A stretch of 64,000 nucleotides of DNA, from the NCBI RefSeq assembly GCF_000021645.1, contig NC_011661.1, positions 1,272,723 through 1,336,722 on the forward strand. The letters are read 5' to 3'. The position numbers were made by a program, and so were the translations under genes. The first letter of the stretch is position 1. Each line of letters opens with the position of its first letter. The notes under the pieces were generated by a model. It did not search any database, had not been told where the DNA came from, and worked only from the letters and a program-made list of their open reading frames with translations. Of this stretch, positions 1 through 8,230 are shown one piece after another. This stretch comes from Dictyoglomus turgidum DSM 6724 (GTDB lineage Bacteria; Dictyoglomota; Dictyoglomia; Dictyoglomales; Dictyoglomaceae).

Positions 1-560
1 AGAGCATGAGAAGAAACTTCCATAGCTAAAAATTTTACCCCTTTATTTACCATTTTACTTAAAATTTCTTGAAGCTCTTGAGGTTGAGGAGTGGTGAAAT
101 TAGAAGGATAAGATTCTTCATCTATTCTATAATCAATAGTCCCAATTAAGCCTGATTTTAAACCCTTACCTTTCCAATAATGGTATAGTAAGCTTGTGGT
201 AGTAGTTTTTCCATTAGTACCTGTAACTCCCACAATATTTAGGTGTTTAGAAGGAAAATTATAAAAGTACAAAGAGACCTTACTTAACACGTCAAATATT
301 TCTTTTACTCTTATTAAGGCTACGTCTCTTTCAAAATTATCAACCTCTCCCTCAAAAAATACTGCTCTTGCTCCTTTTGATATAGCATCACCTATGTACC
401 TTCTTCCATCGTCTCTCGTGCCAGGAAGAGCAAAAAAGATATTCCCTTCTTTTACCTTCCTTGAGTCCGTAGCTATTCCTGTAATATTCCCATCTAAATA
501 TCCCCTAGTTTCAATAACATACTCTCTCACATATTCAACTATTTCTTTTAATTTTCTCAA
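1..560 (-). CDS. murE: UDP-N-acetylmuramyl-tripeptide synthetase MurE, N-terminal part (runs off the window)
   Basis: Cytoplasmic Mur ligase that adds the third stem-peptide residue to UDP-MurNAc-L-Ala-D-Glu. The visible N-terminal part shows the substrate-binding domain (TDSRKVKEGNIFFAL), the ATP-binding P-loop (GTNGKTTTTSLLY) and the start of the central domain (MEVSSHA). I start it at TTG 558-560, which overlaps the ftsI stop by four bases (TTGA) and has a GGAGG eight bases upstream. An ATG at 566 is out because its frame hits the ftsI stop. It is translationally coupled to ftsI. The C-terminal half, which determines Lys versus diaminopimelate, lies outside. Confidence 0.9.
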   Translation of the reverse strand, partial: MRKLKEIVEYVREYVIETRGYLDGNITGIATDSRKVKEGNIFFALPGTRDDGRRYIGDAISKGARAVFFEGEVDNFERDVALIRVKEIFDVLSKVSLYFYNFPSKHLNIVGVTGTNGKTTTTSLLYHYWKGKGLKSGLIGTIDYRIDEESYPSNFTTPQPQELQEILSKMVNKGVKFLAMEVSSHA

Positions 561-2104
561 TTTATCATCCTCCCATATATTGCCAATCTTTTAATTATTT
601 CTCTAAAAAGTGGTACTACCGTTTCTGCGGCAAATCTTCCTTTTTTAGGCTCTTCCAACATAATTAGAATACTATATTTTTTATCTCCTAAAAAGATATA
701 GCCTACAAAAAAATGATTGTATATATCTATATATCCCTGAGATGTAGAGACTTGAGCAGTACCAGTTTTACCTGCAATATAATATTTTAAACTTGAAAGA
801 TTCTTAGCTGTACCTTTCTTTACAACCTCCCTCATCATTTTTAGTACCTCTTCAGAGGTTTCTTTTGAAAAAACCTGTCGGAAAATTTCTCTATGACTTT
901 CTTCAGAAGGTTTTCCAATACCCTTTATTAATCTTAGTTTTAATAAAATTCCATCATTGCCAAAAACGCTTAGAATCCACAACATCTTTAGAGGATTCAT
1001 AGCAATACCATGACCAAATCCAATAGTTCCCCTATTTACTAAGCTTTTTTCAATATCCGCAACTGTAGCATCCCTATCCACAAATTTAGCATCAATAGGA
1101 ACAGGATTATTTATACCGAGCAAATCAAAATACTTATTCCAAATCGAATAAGGAATTTTTTTTGCAAGGTGATAAAAGTATATATTACAAGATTTAACAA
1201 CAGCCTCTTCTAAATTAACTATCCCATGGGGTTCTGTGCATTTAACTTTATATCCGTCACTTATTTCTTCACCTTTACAATAAACAGTCTCTAATGGATC
1301 TACTAATTTCTCTTCTAAAGCAATTCCCGCAGTTATGATCTTAAATAAAGATCCAGGCTCATAAAGAGAATATATGGGACACTTTATATTCTGAGAACTA
1401 TTTATTATTTCTGTTAAGCTTCCATTTGTGTCTATATCGGGAAGAGAGGCTAAGACCAAAATCTCTCCTGTATTAAGATCCATTATTCCAACAAAGCCCC
1501 CTTTTGCCTCATATTCTTTAACATAATCCCTAAGATAAAGAGAAACAATTTCTTGAAGATTTTTATCTATAGTAAGATAGATATTTTTACCTTTGTTTAA
1601 ATAATTATCAAGAAAAGCCTCTAACCCATATAATCCCTGAGAATCTACTCCCACAAAACCCAGTAAATTTGAAGTCCCTATTTTTAAGGGATAGGATCTA
1701 TAATTTTCTTCTACTACAAAAATCTTTCTTCCATCCACATACTTCTTTATCCTATCATATTCCTTCTCCGAAAGAATTCTTTTAATCCAAATAAAGCTTA
1801 CCTTTAAATTTAATTTACTAAGAACATCTTTTTTATCTAAATTTAACTCCTTACTCAATAAAGTAGCGATTCTATTCCTTTCTGCATTATTAAGGATAGA
1901 TGGATTTACTGCCAAGGATTTTCTCTTTATATTAAAGGTTAGTTCATACCCATTTCTATCAAAGATAAGTCCTCTTTCCGAATTTGGAGGAATAAATACT
2001 ATATTCTCAGGTTTAGAAACCTGAGAATAAATAATAAACCCTTCAACAAAAAACAAGATTAATATCCAAAATGTGAAAAATATTCTTGCCCTTAATATAC
2101 TCAT
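557..2104 (-). CDS. ftsI: Division-type penicillin-binding protein 2 / FtsI transpeptidase
   Basis: Class B penicillin-binding protein of 515 residues that cross-links septal peptidoglycan on the outer face of the membrane. One N-terminal membrane segment (about residues 7-27) is followed by a dimerisation domain and the transpeptidase. The three catalytic motifs are present: SxxK as GSLFKI, SxN as SCN and KTG as GKTGTAQ. The gene sits between ftsL and murE, the classical dcw order. No C-terminal PASTA domain is seen, unlike many Firmicutes homologues. Confidence 0.92.
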   Translation of the reverse strand: MSILRARIFFTFWILILFFVEGFIIYSQVSKPENIVFIPPNSERGLIFDRNGYELTFNIKRKSLAVNPSILNNAERNRIATLLSKELNLDKKDVLSKLNLKVSFIWIKRILSEKEYDRIKKYVDGRKIFVVEENYRSYPLKIGTSNLLGFVGVDSQGLYGLEAFLDNYLNKGKNIYLTIDKNLQEIVSLYLRDYVKEYEAKGGFVGIMDLNTGEILVLASLPDIDTNGSLTEIINSSQNIKCPIYSLYEPGSLFKIITAGIALEEKLVDPLETVYCKGEEISDGYKVKCTEPHGIVNLEEAVVKSCNIYFYHLAKKIPYSIWNKYFDLLGINNPVPIDAKFVDRDATVADIEKSLVNRGTIGFGHGIAMNPLKMLWILSVFGNDGILLKLRLIKGIGKPSEESHREIFRQVFSKETSEEVLKMMREVVKKGTAKNLSSLKYYIAGKTGTAQVSTSQGYIDIYNHFFVGYIFLGDKKYSILIMLEEPKKGRFAAETVVPLFREIIKRLAIYGRMIN

Positions 2105-2115
2105 TCAATCCATTT

Positions 2116-2421
2116 CTATTTCTCTAAACTCAAAGCATAATATTTTTCTTTATTTATTTCAGATATTCTTCCATTATAAATTCTAAATTCTACCACATTT
2201 TTAGGATAAACAAGTCCCATTTCTAAAGCCTTCTTTTCTATTTTCTTTAGATCTAAATTAGATTGAATATAGTTTTCTAAATATGTTTTCTCTTTCTCTA
2301 AAATATCAATCTCGTTAATAACTTTCTTAATTTCACTTCGTAGTGCAGAGACCTTGATATTTAAAAAAACAGTACTTAAAAAAAGGAGAAAAAAGAACAA
2401 GATACTTAAAAACTGCTTCAA
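2116..2421 (-). CDS. ftsL: FtsL-like septum formation protein
   Basis: Small single-pass membrane protein of 101 residues: a short cytoplasmic start, a hydrophobic stretch (about residues 4-24) and then a coiled-coil-like segment rich in Glu, Lys and Ile. This is the FtsL/DivIC layout. Sequence is poorly conserved in the family, so the call rests on topology and on its place between rsmH and ftsI. FtsL bridges FtsB/DivIC and FtsW-FtsI in the divisome. Confidence 0.75.
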   Translation of the reverse strand: MKQFLSILFFFLLFLSTVFLNIKVSALRSEIKKVINEIDILEKEKTYLENYIQSNLDLKKIEKKALEMGLVYPKNVVEFRIYNGRISEINKEKYYALSLEK

Positions 2422-2423
2422 AT

Positions 2424-3311
2424 TTATTCCCTCCTTTCTCCCACCCTTAATTTGGCACTTCTTGCTCTCCTGTTCTCTCTTATCTCATTAACAGATGGTC
2501 TTATTACCTTTTTGTTTACAGGAAAAATCTTATCTGAATGACTTTTAAAAAAGTTTTTAACTACCCTATCCTCTATGGAATGGTAAGTTAGCACCACGAT
2601 TCTTCCCCTTGGTGCTAAAATAAAGGGAATCTGATCTAAAGCCCTTTTAAGAATATTTACCTCGTCATTCACTACAATTCTTAATGCTTGAAAAACCTTT
2701 GTTGCTTCATGCCTTTTTCTTTTAGGTATGACCTCCTCAACTACTTCTAAGAGATCCTTAACGTATACAAATTTTTTCTCTTTTCTTCTCTCAACTATTT
2801 TCTTTGCAAGTTTTCTTGAAAGAGGTTCCTCCCCATATTCCCAAAAGAGGTTTGAAAGCTCTAATTCATTGAAACTGTTTAATATGTCTGCTGCAGTTAG
2901 AGTAGTATCCTTAGAATATCTCATATCTAAGGGCTCCTCAGGTCGCATAAAGGAAAAGCCCCTTTCACTTTTTTCTATATGAAAGGAGGAAAAACCTAAA
3001 TCAAACAAAATTGCATCTATGAACGACAATTTCAATTCCTTTAATATCTCCTGAACTTTGTCATATGTGGTATTAAATAATACGAAATTATTTGCTATTT
3101 TTCTTAGCCTTTCTCTTGCTAAATTAAGAACTTCCTCGTCTCTGTCTATACCTATAAGAAGTCCTTCTCCTTTTAACTCTCTTAAAATCTCACTACTGTG
3201 TCCACCAAGTCCTAAAGTAGCATCTACCACTATTTTTCCTGGAGAAAGTTTCAAATAATGAATAACTTCTTTTAACATTACAGGTTTATGAATGATTTCT
3301 ATCTCTTCCAT
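2424..3311 (-). CDS. rsmH: 16S rRNA (cytosine(1402)-N4)-methyltransferase RsmH (MraW)
   Basis: SAM-dependent enzyme that methylates N4 of C1402 in the 16S rRNA decoding centre. At 295 residues it has the usual length. Diagnostic segments are HKPVMLKEV at the start, the SAM-binding DATLGLGGHS, the family motif FDLGFSS, RGFSF, LDMRYS and the C-terminal YHSIEDRVVK. It overlaps the 3' end of mraZ by 13 bases, indicating coupled translation. Confidence 0.96.
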   Translation of the reverse strand: MEEIEIIHKPVMLKEVIHYLKLSPGKIVVDATLGLGGHSSEILRELKGEGLLIGIDRDEEVLNLARERLRKIANNFVLFNTTYDKVQEILKELKLSFIDAILFDLGFSSFHIEKSERGFSFMRPEEPLDMRYSKDTTLTAADILNSFNELELSNLFWEYGEEPLSRKLAKKIVERRKEKKFVYVKDLLEVVEEVIPKRKRHEATKVFQALRIVVNDEVNILKRALDQIPFILAPRGRIVVLTYHSIEDRVVKNFFKSHSDKIFPVNKKVIRPSVNEIRENRRARSAKLRVGERRE

Positions 3312-3739
3312 AATTCAGACACCTTTTCGTTTATTTCTTTCATACTCTCAAGAATATTCTCTTCCTTATTAAACTCTTCCCATCTCTCTTTAGCCCAGAT
3401 TTCTATATGTCTTCCAGCCCCTATAATTACTACATCCTTATAAAGCTCAGCATAATCAATTAAAAAAGATGGAATAAGTATTCTGCCTAATTTGTCAGTA
3501 GTAACCTGTACCGATCCAGAAAACCAAAACCTACAGAGTCTCCTCATTAAATCATCTGTGGGAGAAAAACTACTAATAATTTCAGAAAAATTATTCCAAT
3601 CAGTAATAGTATAGATATTCAAACACCTCTCAAAACCCCGGGTAAGATAAAAAGTTTCCCCCAAAAGTTGCCTAAAATTATTTGGAACAATTAGTCTTCC
3701 TTTTTCATCAAGTGAGTGATAATACTCCCCAACAAACAA
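3299..3739 (-). CDS. mraZ: Transcriptional regulator MraZ
   Basis: SpoVT/AbrB-fold DNA-binding protein of 146 residues with two tandem domains. Each carries the family signature: DEKGRLIVPNNFRQ near residue 11 and DKLGRILIPSFL near residue 84. MraZ forms ring oligomers and represses its own dcw operon by binding GTGG/TGGG repeats before the gene; such repeats are present here (3748-3785). The start is TTG at 3737-3739, preceded by a G-rich ribosome site that overlaps the last repeat, so bound MraZ might also hinder ribosome access (inference). Confidence 0.93.
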   Translation of the reverse strand: MFVGEYYHSLDEKGRLIVPNNFRQLLGETFYLTRGFERCLNIYTITDWNNFSEIISSFSPTDDLMRRLCRFWFSGSVQVTTDKLGRILIPSFLIDYAELYKDVVIIGAGRHIEIWAKERWEEFNKEENILESMKEINEKVSELWKR

Positions 3740-3747
3740 TTAATTTT

Positions 3748-3785
3748 CCCCCATCTTTTACCACTTTTTACCACTTTTTACCACA
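3748..3785 (-). promoter_or_regulatory. MraZ-box repeats before the division cluster
   Basis: Read on the minus strand this holds GTGG, GTGG, GTGG and ATGG cores at an exact 10-base spacing, separated by TAAAAA or TAAAAG. Known MraZ operators are three or four GTGG/TGGG cores at one helical turn, so the match is strong. A -10-like TATACT lies just upstream at 3786-3791, placing the boxes at about +1 to +40. The fourth core merges with the ribosome-binding site of mraZ. Confidence 0.82.
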
Positions 3786-3900
3786 AGTATAGCATAAGAC
3801 TTAACAAATAAAAAAAAGAGATTTATAAGGATTAGTCTATATTTGGAGTTAGAGAAATTAATATGATTTAACTTTTGTTTAATTTTTGTTTAATAAAAAA

Positions 3901-4272
3901 GAGGAGGAAGAAGCAGATCATAAGCCGAATTCTGTTCCCCATATATATGGGGCGGCAACCATCTATCTAGGGCAAGAATTACTTCTTGCCTCAAGCGGCC
4001 AACCCGAGGGTCGGCGGGCCACCTCAACCCCTCCTATTTGGCCTTGCACCAGGTGGGGTTTGCCAAGCCAGGAAGGTCACCCTTCCTGCTGGTGAGCTCT
4101 TACCTCACCTTTTCACCCTTACCCAAGGCAAAAACCTTGGGCGGTTTATTTTCTGTGGCACTTTCCTTCAGGTCACCCTGACTGGGTATTACCCAGCACC
4201 CTGCCCTTTGGTGTTCGGACTTTCCTCGGAATCTCTCAATTCCGCGGTTGCCTGATCTACTTCTTCCTCCTC
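3901..4272 (-). ncRNA. rnpB: RNase P RNA
   Basis: Catalytic RNA of about 372 nt that removes tRNA 5' leaders. The universally conserved core is readable on the minus strand: GAGGAAAGTCCGAACACC near the 5' end and ACAGAATTCGGCTTAT near the 3' end, which together form helix P4. The ends are set by a P1 helix of about 20 bp that pairs 4253-4272 with 3901-3920. A U run follows the 3' strand (3895-3900). The 5' part overlaps the reading frame of the upstream zinc-ribbon gene. Confidence 0.96.
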
Positions 4273-4557
4273 ATATAATTTAGTCCAAGGTACAACCTCA
4301 AATCCTCTTAAACCCTCTTTTCTAATGATCTTCCAATAAGGAACATTATAGGTAACTCTTTTCTCATATCCACATTCACAATACATAATTTTCTCTTCAA
4401 CTCCATCTTCAAAAGGTGTAGGAGCTTTTAATAGTCTATACCTTGTGAGCAAAATTTTCCCGCATTTAGGACATTTAGGCGTTGTAAAGTATTTTATCAG
4501 CTTATCTCCAAGGTACAGTATTAACAAAGCCCCTACTATAAGAAGAATTGCTTCCAT
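4189..4557 (-). CDS. Small membrane-anchored zinc-ribbon protein, reading into rnpB
   Basis: Unrecognised protein of 122 residues. It has an N-terminal hydrophobic helix (residues 3-20), then a zinc-binding CPKCGK and a second pair, CECGY, about 30 residues later. No stop occurs before rnpB, so the last 28 codons lie in the 5' strand of the RNase P RNA and end only at 4189. Those 28 codons give a low-complexity acidic tail (EEEEVDQATAELRD) and may be incidental. The gene follows the 4564-5277 gene by six bases, probably in one transcript. Confidence 0.6.
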   Translation of the reverse strand: MEAILLIVGALLILYLGDKLIKYFTTPKCPKCGKILLTRYRLLKAPTPFEDGVEEKIMYCECGYEKRVTYNVPYWKIIRKEGLRGFEVVPWTKLYEEEEVDQATAELRDSEESPNTKGQGAG

Positions 4558-4563
4558 GTTATA

Positions 4564-5277
4564 TCATTCCACCCATAAAATTCTACCACAATTTGGGCAA
4601 TTTACAATTTCATTTCTCTTTACCCTTTCAAGAACTACCTTAGGAATGGCTATCTTACATCCTTCACATACATCTCTATTTACCCTTGCTATAGGTTTAT
4701 AATTTTTTTGTTTTGACAATTTATCAAATTCCTCTAAATCATCAGTAGGAATCTCCTTTCTTTTATCCTCAATTTCTATATGTAAAAGCTCTATCTCATT
4801 CTCTACATTTTTTATCTTTTCTTCATATTCCTTCACTTTATTATCAAAGGCTATTTTAGACTCATTAAAAGCTTTCTCCAATTCTTTCTCGGTCTTTGTT
4901 TTCTCTTCTAACTCAATCATTAGATTCAAAATTTCGTCCTCAATTTTTGAGATTAAACTCTTTAAATTTTCTATCTCCTTCTCCATATGCATTACTTCCT
5001 TAGGGTTTTTTAAAATTAATATTCTCCTTTCTTCATTAGTAAGCTTCTCTTTTAATAAAACCAACTGATCTTCTTTTTCCCTTTGTTGATCTCTTAGCTT
5101 TTTAATCTGATCTCTAATATTGATTAGATTTTCTTCTTTCAACTTTATTTCTCCTAATTTTTCATTCTTAAAGATATCAAATTCTGCTTGAAGCCCCTTT
5201 AAATTTTTTTCAGATTCTCGGTATTTTAATTGTAAATCTTGTATTTCTAATAATTTTGGAATTAACTCTCTCTTCAT
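4564..5277 (-). CDS. Coiled-coil protein with C-terminal C4 zinc ribbon (DUF164 / zf-RING_7 family)
   Basis: Protein of 237 residues. About 180 residues of charged heptad-like sequence predict a long antiparallel coiled coil. The C-terminus has CEGCKIAIP and CPNCGRILW about 21 residues apart, forming a C4 zinc ribbon. This is the bacterial PF02591 architecture; proposed roles involve nucleic acids but the function is not established. In many genomes the family sits close to rnpB, as here. Confidence 0.8.
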   Translation of the reverse strand: MKRELIPKLLEIQDLQLKYRESEKNLKGLQAEFDIFKNEKLGEIKLKEENLINIRDQIKKLRDQQREKEDQLVLLKEKLTNEERRILILKNPKEVMHMEKEIENLKSLISKIEDEILNLMIELEEKTKTEKELEKAFNESKIAFDNKVKEYEEKIKNVENEIELLHIEIEDKRKEIPTDDLEEFDKLSKQKNYKPIARVNRDVCEGCKIAIPKVVLERVKRNEIVNCPNCGRILWVE

Positions 5278-5357: not shown

Positions 5358-5433
5358 TGGTGGGCGGAGCAGGATTTGAACCTGCGACCTCCTGCGTGTG
5401 AAGCAGGCGCTCTAACCTCTGAGCCATCCGCCC
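5358..5433 (-). tRNA. tRNA-Val (anticodon CAC)
   Basis: Cloverleaf on the minus strand with acceptor GGGCGGA/TCCGCCC, encoded CCA and discriminator A. The anticodon stem CCTGC/GCAGG encloses loop TTCACAC, giving anticodon CAC for GUG codons. The T-loop is GTTCAAAT. It is nearly identical in its arms to tRNA-Val(TAC) at 28675. Confidence 0.96.
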
Positions 5434-5461: not shown

Positions 5462-5536
5462 TGGTGGGCCCGCCAGGATTCGAACCTAGAACCAACCGGT
5501 TATGAGCCGGCTGCTCTGCCGTTGAGCTACGGGCCC
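5462..5536 (-). tRNA. tRNA-Met (anticodon CAT, elongator type)
   Basis: Minus-strand cloverleaf with acceptor GGGCCCG/CGGGCCC, discriminator A and encoded CCA. The anticodon loop is CTCATAA. The anticodon stem lacks the three consecutive G:C pairs (GGG/CCC) of initiator tRNA and the first acceptor pair is matched, so it is an elongator Met tRNA. A lysidine-modified Ile(CAU) tRNA is a less likely alternative that sequence alone cannot exclude. Confidence 0.88.
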
Positions 5537-5601
5537 AACCATCGAAGAAAATTATAATATATTCTTCCCTAAAATTCAAGTGCCCTCTAAATAAAACTCA
5601 T

Positions 5602-5642: not shown

Positions 5643-6995
5643 TTAGATCTTAGGTAGTTCTTTCAATGCCTCTTCAACCTTATCTTTTGGATAGAAATAG
5701 TCTTCAAGTTTTCCAGAAAGATATTGATCATAAGCAGACAAATCAAAGAATCCATGTCCACTCAAATTAAATAATATTACTTTCTTTTCTCCTTTTTCTT
5801 TTGCATCTAAAGCCTCATCGATGACAGCTCTAATAGCGTGAGTGGATTCTGGAGCAGGTACAATACCCTCAGTCTTTGCAAAGATCACTCCTGCTTCAAA
5901 TACTTTTGTCTGGGGATAAGCTACAGCTTCTATGTACCCATGGTGATATAAAGCACTAACCAAAGGAGCCATACCATGATAACGAAGTCCTCCAGCATGT
6001 ATAGCAGGAGGTATAAAATTATGCCCCAAGGTATACATTTTGAGAAGAGGAGTCATCTTAGCTACATCTCCATAATCATAGGTATAAACTCCCTTAGTCA
6101 AACTTGGACATGATTCTGGTTCAACTGCAATAATTCTTATTTTTTTACCTTTAAATTTTTCTCTTATAAAAGGAAAAGAAATACCTGCAAAATTGCTTCC
6201 TCCTCCTACACAACCTATAACTACATCAGGAAACTCTCCTGCTATCTCCATTTGTAATAAAGCCTCTTCTCCTATCACAGTTTGATGAAGTAAGACATGA
6301 TTTAATACACTACCAAGGGAATATTTTGTATCATCCCTTTTAACTGCATCTTCCACTGCCTCACTTATAGCAACTCCTAAGGATCCCGGAGAGTCAGGAT
6401 CTTGTTCTAATATCCTTCTCCCTGACTCAGTATCAGGACTTGGACTTGGTACTACTTTAGCTCCCCAGATCTCCATCAAGGATCTTCTATATGGCTTTTG
6501 ATAATAACTTACTTTAACCATATAGACTTTACATTCTAACCCAAAGAAATTACAAGCCATAGCAAGAGCTGAGCCCCATTGTCCTGCTCCAGTCTCTGTA
6601 GTTAATCTCTTAACCCCTTCAAGCTTGTTATAAAAGGCCTGAGCTACAGCAGTATTTGGCTTATGGCTTCCAGGAGGGCTTACTCCCTCGTATTTATAAT
6701 ATATATGAGCTGGAGTATCCAAATATTTCTCTAAATTAAGAGCCCTATACAAAGGAGTTGGTCTCCATAACTTGTATATTTTCCTTACTTCTTCGGGAAT
6801 TTCAATATATCTCTCTGTACTCACCTCCTGCTTTATAAGCTCCACAGGAAAAATAGGTGCAAGATCCTCAGGTTTTACTGGTTGCAGGGTCACAGGATGA
6901 TAGACCGGGGGAAGAGGAAAAGGCAGATCAGGAATAATGTTGTACCAATCCTTAGGTATTTTAGACTCGTCAAGAATAAATTTGACCTTTGACAT
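5643..6995 (-). CDS. trpB2: Tryptophan synthase beta chain, TrpB2 type
   Basis: PLP enzyme of 450 residues that condenses indole with serine to form tryptophan. Features: the PLP lysine in GSHKPN, GAGQWG, the glycine-rich phosphate cup GCVGGGSNF and a C-terminal LSGHGFFDL. Its length and the extended N-terminus ([15 protein letters not shown]-like) mark the TrpB2 branch rather than TrpB1, which usually pairs with TrpA. No trpA is nearby; TrpB2 enzymes are thought to work alone, scavenging indole. The tryptophan-specific T-box before it supports the role. The ATG has a GGGGAGG ribosome site. Confidence 0.92.
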
Positions 6996-7020: not shown

Positions 7021-7054
7021 AAGCCTTCTCATCCTGAAAAGGACGAGAAGGCTT
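7021..7054 (-). terminator. T-box intrinsic terminator
   Basis: Stem of about 14 bp (AAGCCTTCTCGTCC pairing with GGATGAGAAGGCTT) with a short loop, then AAATTTTTAT on the minus strand, 25 bases before the trpB2 start. It competes with the T-box antiterminator. Confidence 0.85.
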
Positions 7055-7262
7055 ACTCTCGCGGTACCACCTTAATGGAGTCTAAAAAGACTCCACTCTT
7101 TGCTCTATAACGGGAGCAATACCGTCTTTGGCTACTCAAACCTTTCGCCTCGAAGCTCCGGGGCCCATTCACTATAAACAGGATAGTTAGCTTTCAGCCT
7201 CAGACTAACCTCTCTGTAATCCTGTTTTATAGTTACTCTTCCCCTTCACAGCTTTTGCTAAT
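7021..7262 (-). promoter_or_regulatory. T-box riboswitch controlling trpB2, predicted specifier UGG
   Basis: Minus-strand leader with the T-box sequence AAGGTGGTACCGCG at about 7061-7074 and a terminator/antiterminator pair at its 3' end. Stem I pairs ACTATAAAACAGGAT with ATCCTGTTTATAGT. The specifier bulge reads GAA-TGG-G, putting a UGG (Trp) codon at 7165-7167. Uncharged tRNA-Trp would pair with it and with the T-box bulge, stabilising the antiterminator and switching on trpB2. A TATAAT-like -10 at 7283-7288 precedes the leader. Confidence 0.93.
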
Positions 7263-8058: not shown

Positions 8059-8081
8059 TATAATACACAAAAATTGAAGAT

Positions 8082-8174
8082 GGTTCCCGGGGGAGCCTCT
8101 GATCCGAGGCTGAGAGGGTAGCAGGAGCTACCGACCCTTTGAACCTGATCTGGGTAATGCCAGCGTAGGGAAGG
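8082..8174 (+). promoter_or_regulatory. TPP (thi-box) riboswitch upstream of thiT-thiN
   Basis: Canonical TPP aptamer: CTGAGAGG in the pyrimidine-sensing arm, ACCCTTTGAACCTGATCTGG and GTAATGCCAGCGTAGGGAA in the pyrophosphate arm, closed by TTCCC/GGGAA. A TATAAT at 8059-8064 is a probable -10 box, with the cysE stop just before it. TPP binding is expected to shut off thiT and thiN by the terminator that follows. Confidence 0.97.
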
Positions 8175-8176
8175 GA

Positions 8177-8230
8177 TAAAAAATTTAAGGTTCCCTCCTT
8201 ATGGCTGGCAGGGAGCCTTAAATTTTTTAT
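8177..8230 (+). terminator. Terminator arm of the TPP riboswitch
   Basis: Long inverted repeat (AAAAAATTTAAGG... pairing with ...CCTTAAATTTTTT, plus inner CCCT/AGGG pairs) that ends in a T run just before the thiT ribosome site. It is positioned as the expression platform of the aptamer. Confidence 0.85.

Follow-up and report, generated by a model that had tools for sequence, protein, structure and literature searches.

A zinc-ribbon gene running into the 5' quarter of the RNase P RNA gene in Dictyoglomaceae, and comparable overlaps with unrelated genes in other bacteria

How can the same bases serve as codons of a protein gene and as the conserved core of a ribozyme, and from which transcript does the ribozyme then arise? 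The locus that raises this question lies on the minus strand of the window, the whole stretch of 64,000 nucleotides analysed here from the heat-loving bacterium Dictyoglomus turgidum (genome length 1,855,560 bases). Its rnpB gene encodes a class A RNase P RNA (RF00010), which covers the full Rfam model (1-367 of 367) and scores 338 bits against a cut-off of 100. The Rfam match spans 3906..4263, but both ends pair past this boundary in a P1 helix of 20 contiguous pairs starting from 4272, which extends the gene to 3901..4272. This helix, which joins the two ends of the RNA, consists of 17-26 contiguous pairs in all six family genomes with the gene. A run of T directly 3' of the P1 3' strand (3895..3900, minus strand) represents a possible terminator as judged from the sequence; it is not reported by our terminator scan, which accepts loops of 3-8 only.

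The final gene ahead of rnpB on the same strand, referred to here as znR (4189..4557, minus strand), is an ORF of 122 codons for a zinc-ribbon protein of 122 amino acids with the Cys pairs CPKC and CEC and an N-terminal hydrophobic stretch, for which a Pfam profile search yielded no family at or above its cut-off. The ORF reading agrees with the original prediction of a frame without a stop codon before rnpB that stays open to 4189: the znR stop is a TAA at 4191-4189, inside rnpB. The predicted extent of 28 codons into the RNA fits the extended P1 with the stop counted, corresponding to an overlap of 84 nt (4189..4272, minus strand; 27 sense codons plus stop), while counting from the Rfam boundary gives 75 nt (24 codons plus stop). 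The shared stretch contains both elements that had been proposed to serve as codons, the P1 5' strand and the conserved GAGGAAAGTCC core, along with P2, P3 and the stem leading to the TAA loop. Within rnpB, the frame reads GAG GAA AGT CCG AAC ACC (EESPNT), and the predicted protein tail would end with the residues ...GQGAG. According to the Rfam structure line, the TAA falls within an apical loop, which we take to be that of P8.

The overlap of znR and rnpB is real and conserved. Six of the seven genomes sampled from the family, evenly divided between two genera, carry both genes; the remaining one (G003, 72% complete, same genus) gave a match for neither. In all six, znR continues into rnpB as far as this TAA, an open frame in relatives having been suggested as a check, and no genome of the family was found to combine a stop before rnpB with a strong rnpB promoter. 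Beyond the family, one more znR match, a weak one in G124, emerged from a search of 145 genomes. It is this conservation to the same stop in six of six genomes from two genera which is non-trivial, while an open frame into rnpB alone is unremarkable. The 5' region of rnpB is generally stop-poor: 60% of 441 frame entries (three frames each in 147 diverse rnpB genes, i.e., the 149 survey loci except two without the core motif) stay open for at least 60 nt, and 37% of the frames are open as far as the core. Such frequencies would suit an explanation by chance or annotation only, in which ribosomes never reach the open frame, the mRNA having been cut upstream beforehand. We nevertheless consider this very improbable, because the znR body qualifies as a real conserved gene (relatives share 68-89% identity with the window protein, and the variable columns by codon position number 41, 21 and 79), and because a cut upstream would deprive the znR message of its stop codon, so that ribosomes on it would have to be rescued.

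The part of the frame lying within rnpB has 4, 5 and 9 variable columns by codon position (27 codon columns). These values, which are not significant and not clearly uneven, make no convincing case for coding selection in the overlap, and together with the sister lineages without overlap they speak for a protein tail that is mostly a by-product. Against this view stands a hint from P3, whose hairpin lengths, counted by hand in the six-genome alignment, are 14, 14, 14, 20, 17 and 17 (L001, L003, L004, L002, L005 and L011) and thus differ only by multiples of three; hairpins past the stop also change by other steps. This may indicate a frame that is held rather than merely tolerated, although the independent events are few and the observation is partly circular, the loci having been called by the frame. 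A held frame, as well as an overlap conserved in all six family genomes, would be expected if the overlap had been selected as regulatory coupling, with ribosomes that cross the 5' quarter of P RNA on the primary transcript delaying its folding or cutting, so that P RNA output answers to translation. Regulation of P RNA by translation is possible, but selection for it appears unlikely to us, one point against it being the non-significant codon-position signal; further points on both sides come from other bacteria and are given below.

As to the origin of P RNA, the gene order duf164-znR-rnpB is found in all six family genomes, with duf164 directly upstream of znR. In the window, duf164 (4564..5277, minus strand) encodes a C4-type zinc ribbon with a coiled coil (PF02591, 6.2e-11, above cut-off). 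No terminator-like site was found on the minus strand from 5700 to 3600 in the scan for loops of 3-8, and going upstream from the operon, the first strong promoter candidate is a TTGAAT-17-TATAAT promoter-like site (5551..5579, minus strand), which precedes two tRNA genes located upstream of duf164. Promoters were scored by a matrix built from 22 of the 26 tRNA leaders of the window genome, which covers sigma-A-type sites only; 22/26 leaders score above 4 and 19/26 reach 9.7-17.9, with a 95% value of 7.0 for the background of 80-nt coding stretches. In the 80 nt scanned before rnpB, no site in any of the six family genomes amounts to a strong promoter of the sigma-A type: the best sites score 0.0, 6.5, 4.9, 0.0, 0.6 and 2.7 (L001, L002, L003, L004, L005 and L011). 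The lack of a clear rnpB promoter noticed in the original prediction is therefore borne out, the best window site scoring 0.0 vs. the background of 7.0.

A promoter may still be embedded in the znR coding sequence, starting a transcript without a start codon near 4272 and doubling as codons; mRNA and P RNA would then be separate molecules and the overlap thus harmless. We regard this explanation as possible, though tentative. It draws on candidate sites located 8 nt before the rnpB Rfam 5' end in L002 (TTGAAA-18-TATATA, 6.5) and L003 (TTGAAG-18-TATACG, 4.9), but 6.4% and 21.8% of 80-nt coding stretches reach these respective scores, the other four family genomes score only 0.0-2.7, and no hexamer pair is conserved across the six. 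A more general argument in its favour is how often a -10-like box accompanies the 5' end of rnpB: this is the case in 106/188 non-overlapping loci vs. 5-12% at seven control offsets, and in 9/26 overlapping loci vs. 4-19% at controls (Fisher p 0.057, with related genomes counted apart; L134, L140 and L141, whose matches start inside the model, are excluded from the overlapping set). The overlapping loci with a box include four RsfS loci (TAGAAT) as well as L250 and L252 (TATAAT), and some lineages, the RsfS group included, thus seem to keep the box inside coding sequence. For the Dictyoglomaceae family, no convincing -10-like box is apparent within the coding sequence.

With a probability of roughly 0.5, we favour a compact operon of duf164, znR and rnpB, from whose transcript P RNA is probably released by a cut, and a protein tail that is mostly a by-product. 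An at least partial derivation of P RNA from the cut operon transcript is the most likely origin, and an embedded promoter is nearly as likely. Ribosomes on znR would run through P1, P2, P3 and the GAGGAAAGTCC core and leave at the TAA built into P RNA, adding a tail which the znR protein presumably tolerates. P RNA would be freed by an endonuclease cut upstream and subsequent 5' trimming, which would halt at the long P1 helix; the trimming enzyme is perhaps RNase J, as in S. aureus, and a homologue of it is encoded in the genome (TIGR00649, 596.6 bits, cut-off 400). Each molecule would then serve either as translated mRNA or, after the cut, as a ribozyme without a start codon. Three points count against a cut transcript as the source: a promoter may exist even without consensus, a TGGATA-16-TATAAT promoter-like site of moderate score (7.9) lies inside znR 81 nt before the rnpB Rfam 5' end (4345..4372, minus strand) and is also present in G004/L002, and it is hard to explain how enough P RNA should come from an mRNA of ordinary strength.

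A precedent for such processing exists in S. aureus. There, a transcript spanning gpsB and rnpB is cut ahead of rnpB and shortened to P1 by RNase J, and the promoter of rnpB itself is weak (PMC3937233). The S. aureus locus resembles znR-rnpB in having a same-strand gene directly upstream with no terminator between, no strong rnpB promoter, an encoded RNase J, and P1 as a barrier to 5' trimming, a role that is only predicted for znR-rnpB (PMC3937233). The same source places the S. aureus cuts after the upstream ORF and before rnpB, whereas the znR ORF crosses P1 and the core, and processing is demonstrated for S. aureus but presumed for znR-rnpB (PMC3937233). Of the original suggestion that rnpB may be processed from a longer mRNA, the processing itself has gained indirect support from the gene order, the missing terminator and good promoter, the RNase J gene and the S. 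aureus precedent; translation may, as also suggested, compete with folding of the RNA. A special meaning of the arrangement has lost ground through the stop-poor region, the occurrence of the layout elsewhere, and the -10-like box in some of these cases.

The overlap was also considered as a unique invention of the Dictyoglomaceae, which was rejected when a survey of 149 diverse rnpB loci (L006-L241) revealed other lineages with unrelated genes. Pfam-matched genes ending at least 20 nt inside rnpB code for RsfS (L009), RNase HI (L014, L023, L103, L163 and L232) and an EamA transporter (L212), and genes of all three kinds end at the corresponding rnpB TAA in other lineages. Not counted as genes were long frames that run across the rnpB 5' end and lack a Pfam match (L153, L121, L195, L221 and L203, all scanned), frames discounted by eye without a Pfam scan (L170, L217, L015 and L101), and L215, which has a match below cut-off only. 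What is new is the breadth, i.e., the same layout in several lineages with other genes; a literature search, with most subscription journals outside its reach, found no paper on a protein gene overlapping the rnpB 5' end.

A close counterpart to znR is RsfS in the phylum of G042, which uses the same frame through GAGGAAAGTCC and reaches the corresponding TAA in 5/9 genomes. It differs in the unrelated protein, in a -10-like TAGAAT in the coding sequence, and in the four genomes where the gene ends elsewhere, two at +8 and two at -17. In L009, L129, L130 and L131, this TAGAAT is part of the RsfS coding sequence, precedes the rnpB 5' end by 6 nt and represents a candidate promoter made of codons. 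RNase HI enters rnpB in all eight genomes with a read locus from the phylum of G027 (a second, low-scoring match, L142, was left unread), five ending at the corresponding TAA and three at a stop in the P3 hairpin (L135 TAA, L138 TGA and L139 TAG); the latter position is also used in L103, as if the variable P3 loop were a free place for an RNase HI stop. Two orders show the overlap in a minority of loci. In that of G298, where 22 of 25 genomes have matches and L262-L265, being partial or low-scoring, were left unread, 3/21 read loci run to the TAA; in that of G238, with matches in 32 of 41 genomes and with L294 plus two hits lacking loci left unread, 4/29 do so. For L250, L252, L267, L270 and L271, RNase HI was identified by motif search only.

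A view on the wider neighbourhood offers a simple origin for these cases. As detected by two home-made profiles, RNase HI is encoded upstream of rnpB in 48/149 loci, with stops from -261 to +107, and DUF164 in 46/149. The duf164-rnhA-rnpB neighbourhood, with RNase HI encoded immediately or almost immediately ahead of rnpB, is widely shared. It resembles the znR locus in the upstream DUF164 gene and in a final gene which ends near, at or inside rnpB in some loci, and differs in that this gene codes for RNase HI instead of a small zinc-ribbon protein. The wide spread of RNase HI ends around rnpB thus identifies the overlap as the tail of a distance spread in an old gene neighbourhood, and the sister lineages of the other overlapping groups lack it.

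The choice of frame could still be taken as a sign of selection, as 6/7 lineage groups crossing the core, grouped by eye, use the EESP frame and the same TAA, compared with 37% of frames that remain open to the core (p 0.013), which would favour the regulatory coupling outlined above. However, the EESP frame simply has the nearest stop: the median distance after the GAGG of the GAGGAAAGTCC core is 39 nt, compared with 55 and 119 nt in the other frames, and the shorter tail given by the nearest stop may be the whole reason why the frame is shared. With the rnpB 5' region being stop-poor, a gene losing its stop before rnpB will therefore often reach the corresponding TAA. The patchy occurrence elsewhere, seen in the two orders and in the phylum of G042, is a further argument against coupling. 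In its most far-reaching form, the shared stretch would be a selected dual-use element, in which ribosomes ending at the TAA keep the 5' quarter of P RNA open on the primary transcript, each transcript acts as either mRNA or ribozyme, and the coupling was reached independently by lineages with zinc-ribbon, RsfS, RNase HI and EamA genes; we consider this improbable as well.

Overlapping genes with a stop codon inside the next gene are known from compact operons. Ordinary overlaps involve a second protein frame, whereas the partner downstream of znR is a ribozyme, in which the shared bases are constrained by pairing and catalysis. As a rule, RNase P RNA is regarded as plainly non-coding, and one Ribo-seq study chose it to exemplify RNA that is not translated (PMC10117765). 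Translation of the tail, if it occurs, would mean that a universal ribozyme is also protein-coding over its 5' quarter, conserved core included, in several bacterial lineages. This would provide natural systems where ribosome traffic meets ribozyme folding on one transcript, and a warning for gene-calling programs, for the annotation of rnpB and for controls in Ribo-seq. Even on the plain reading of a cut operon transcript with a by-product tail, an essential ribozyme is packed very closely behind a message, and a conserved loop offers a ready stop codon.

Some minor observations concern the surroundings of the operon. The two tRNA genes upstream of duf164, tRNA-Val (cac; 5358..5433, minus strand) and tRNA-Met (cat; 5462..5536, minus strand), were rejected as a fixed part of it, as their position differs among the family genomes: they are close to duf164 in G004 as in the window genome, more distant by about 3.3 kb in G002, and absent from the stretches read in G001, G005 and G006. 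In G002 (1,959,987 bases), the segment of about 3.3 kb separating the tRNA pair from duf164 (L300, about 240-4070 of the reversed stretch), compared with fewer than 100 bases in the window genome, carries minus-strand frames of 196 and 245 codons. The window also contains a T-box leader (7036-7258, minus strand) ahead of a gene of the PALP family (TrpB-like; 5643-6995, minus strand), and a TPP riboswitch (8079-8188, plus strand) ahead of a frame at 8229.
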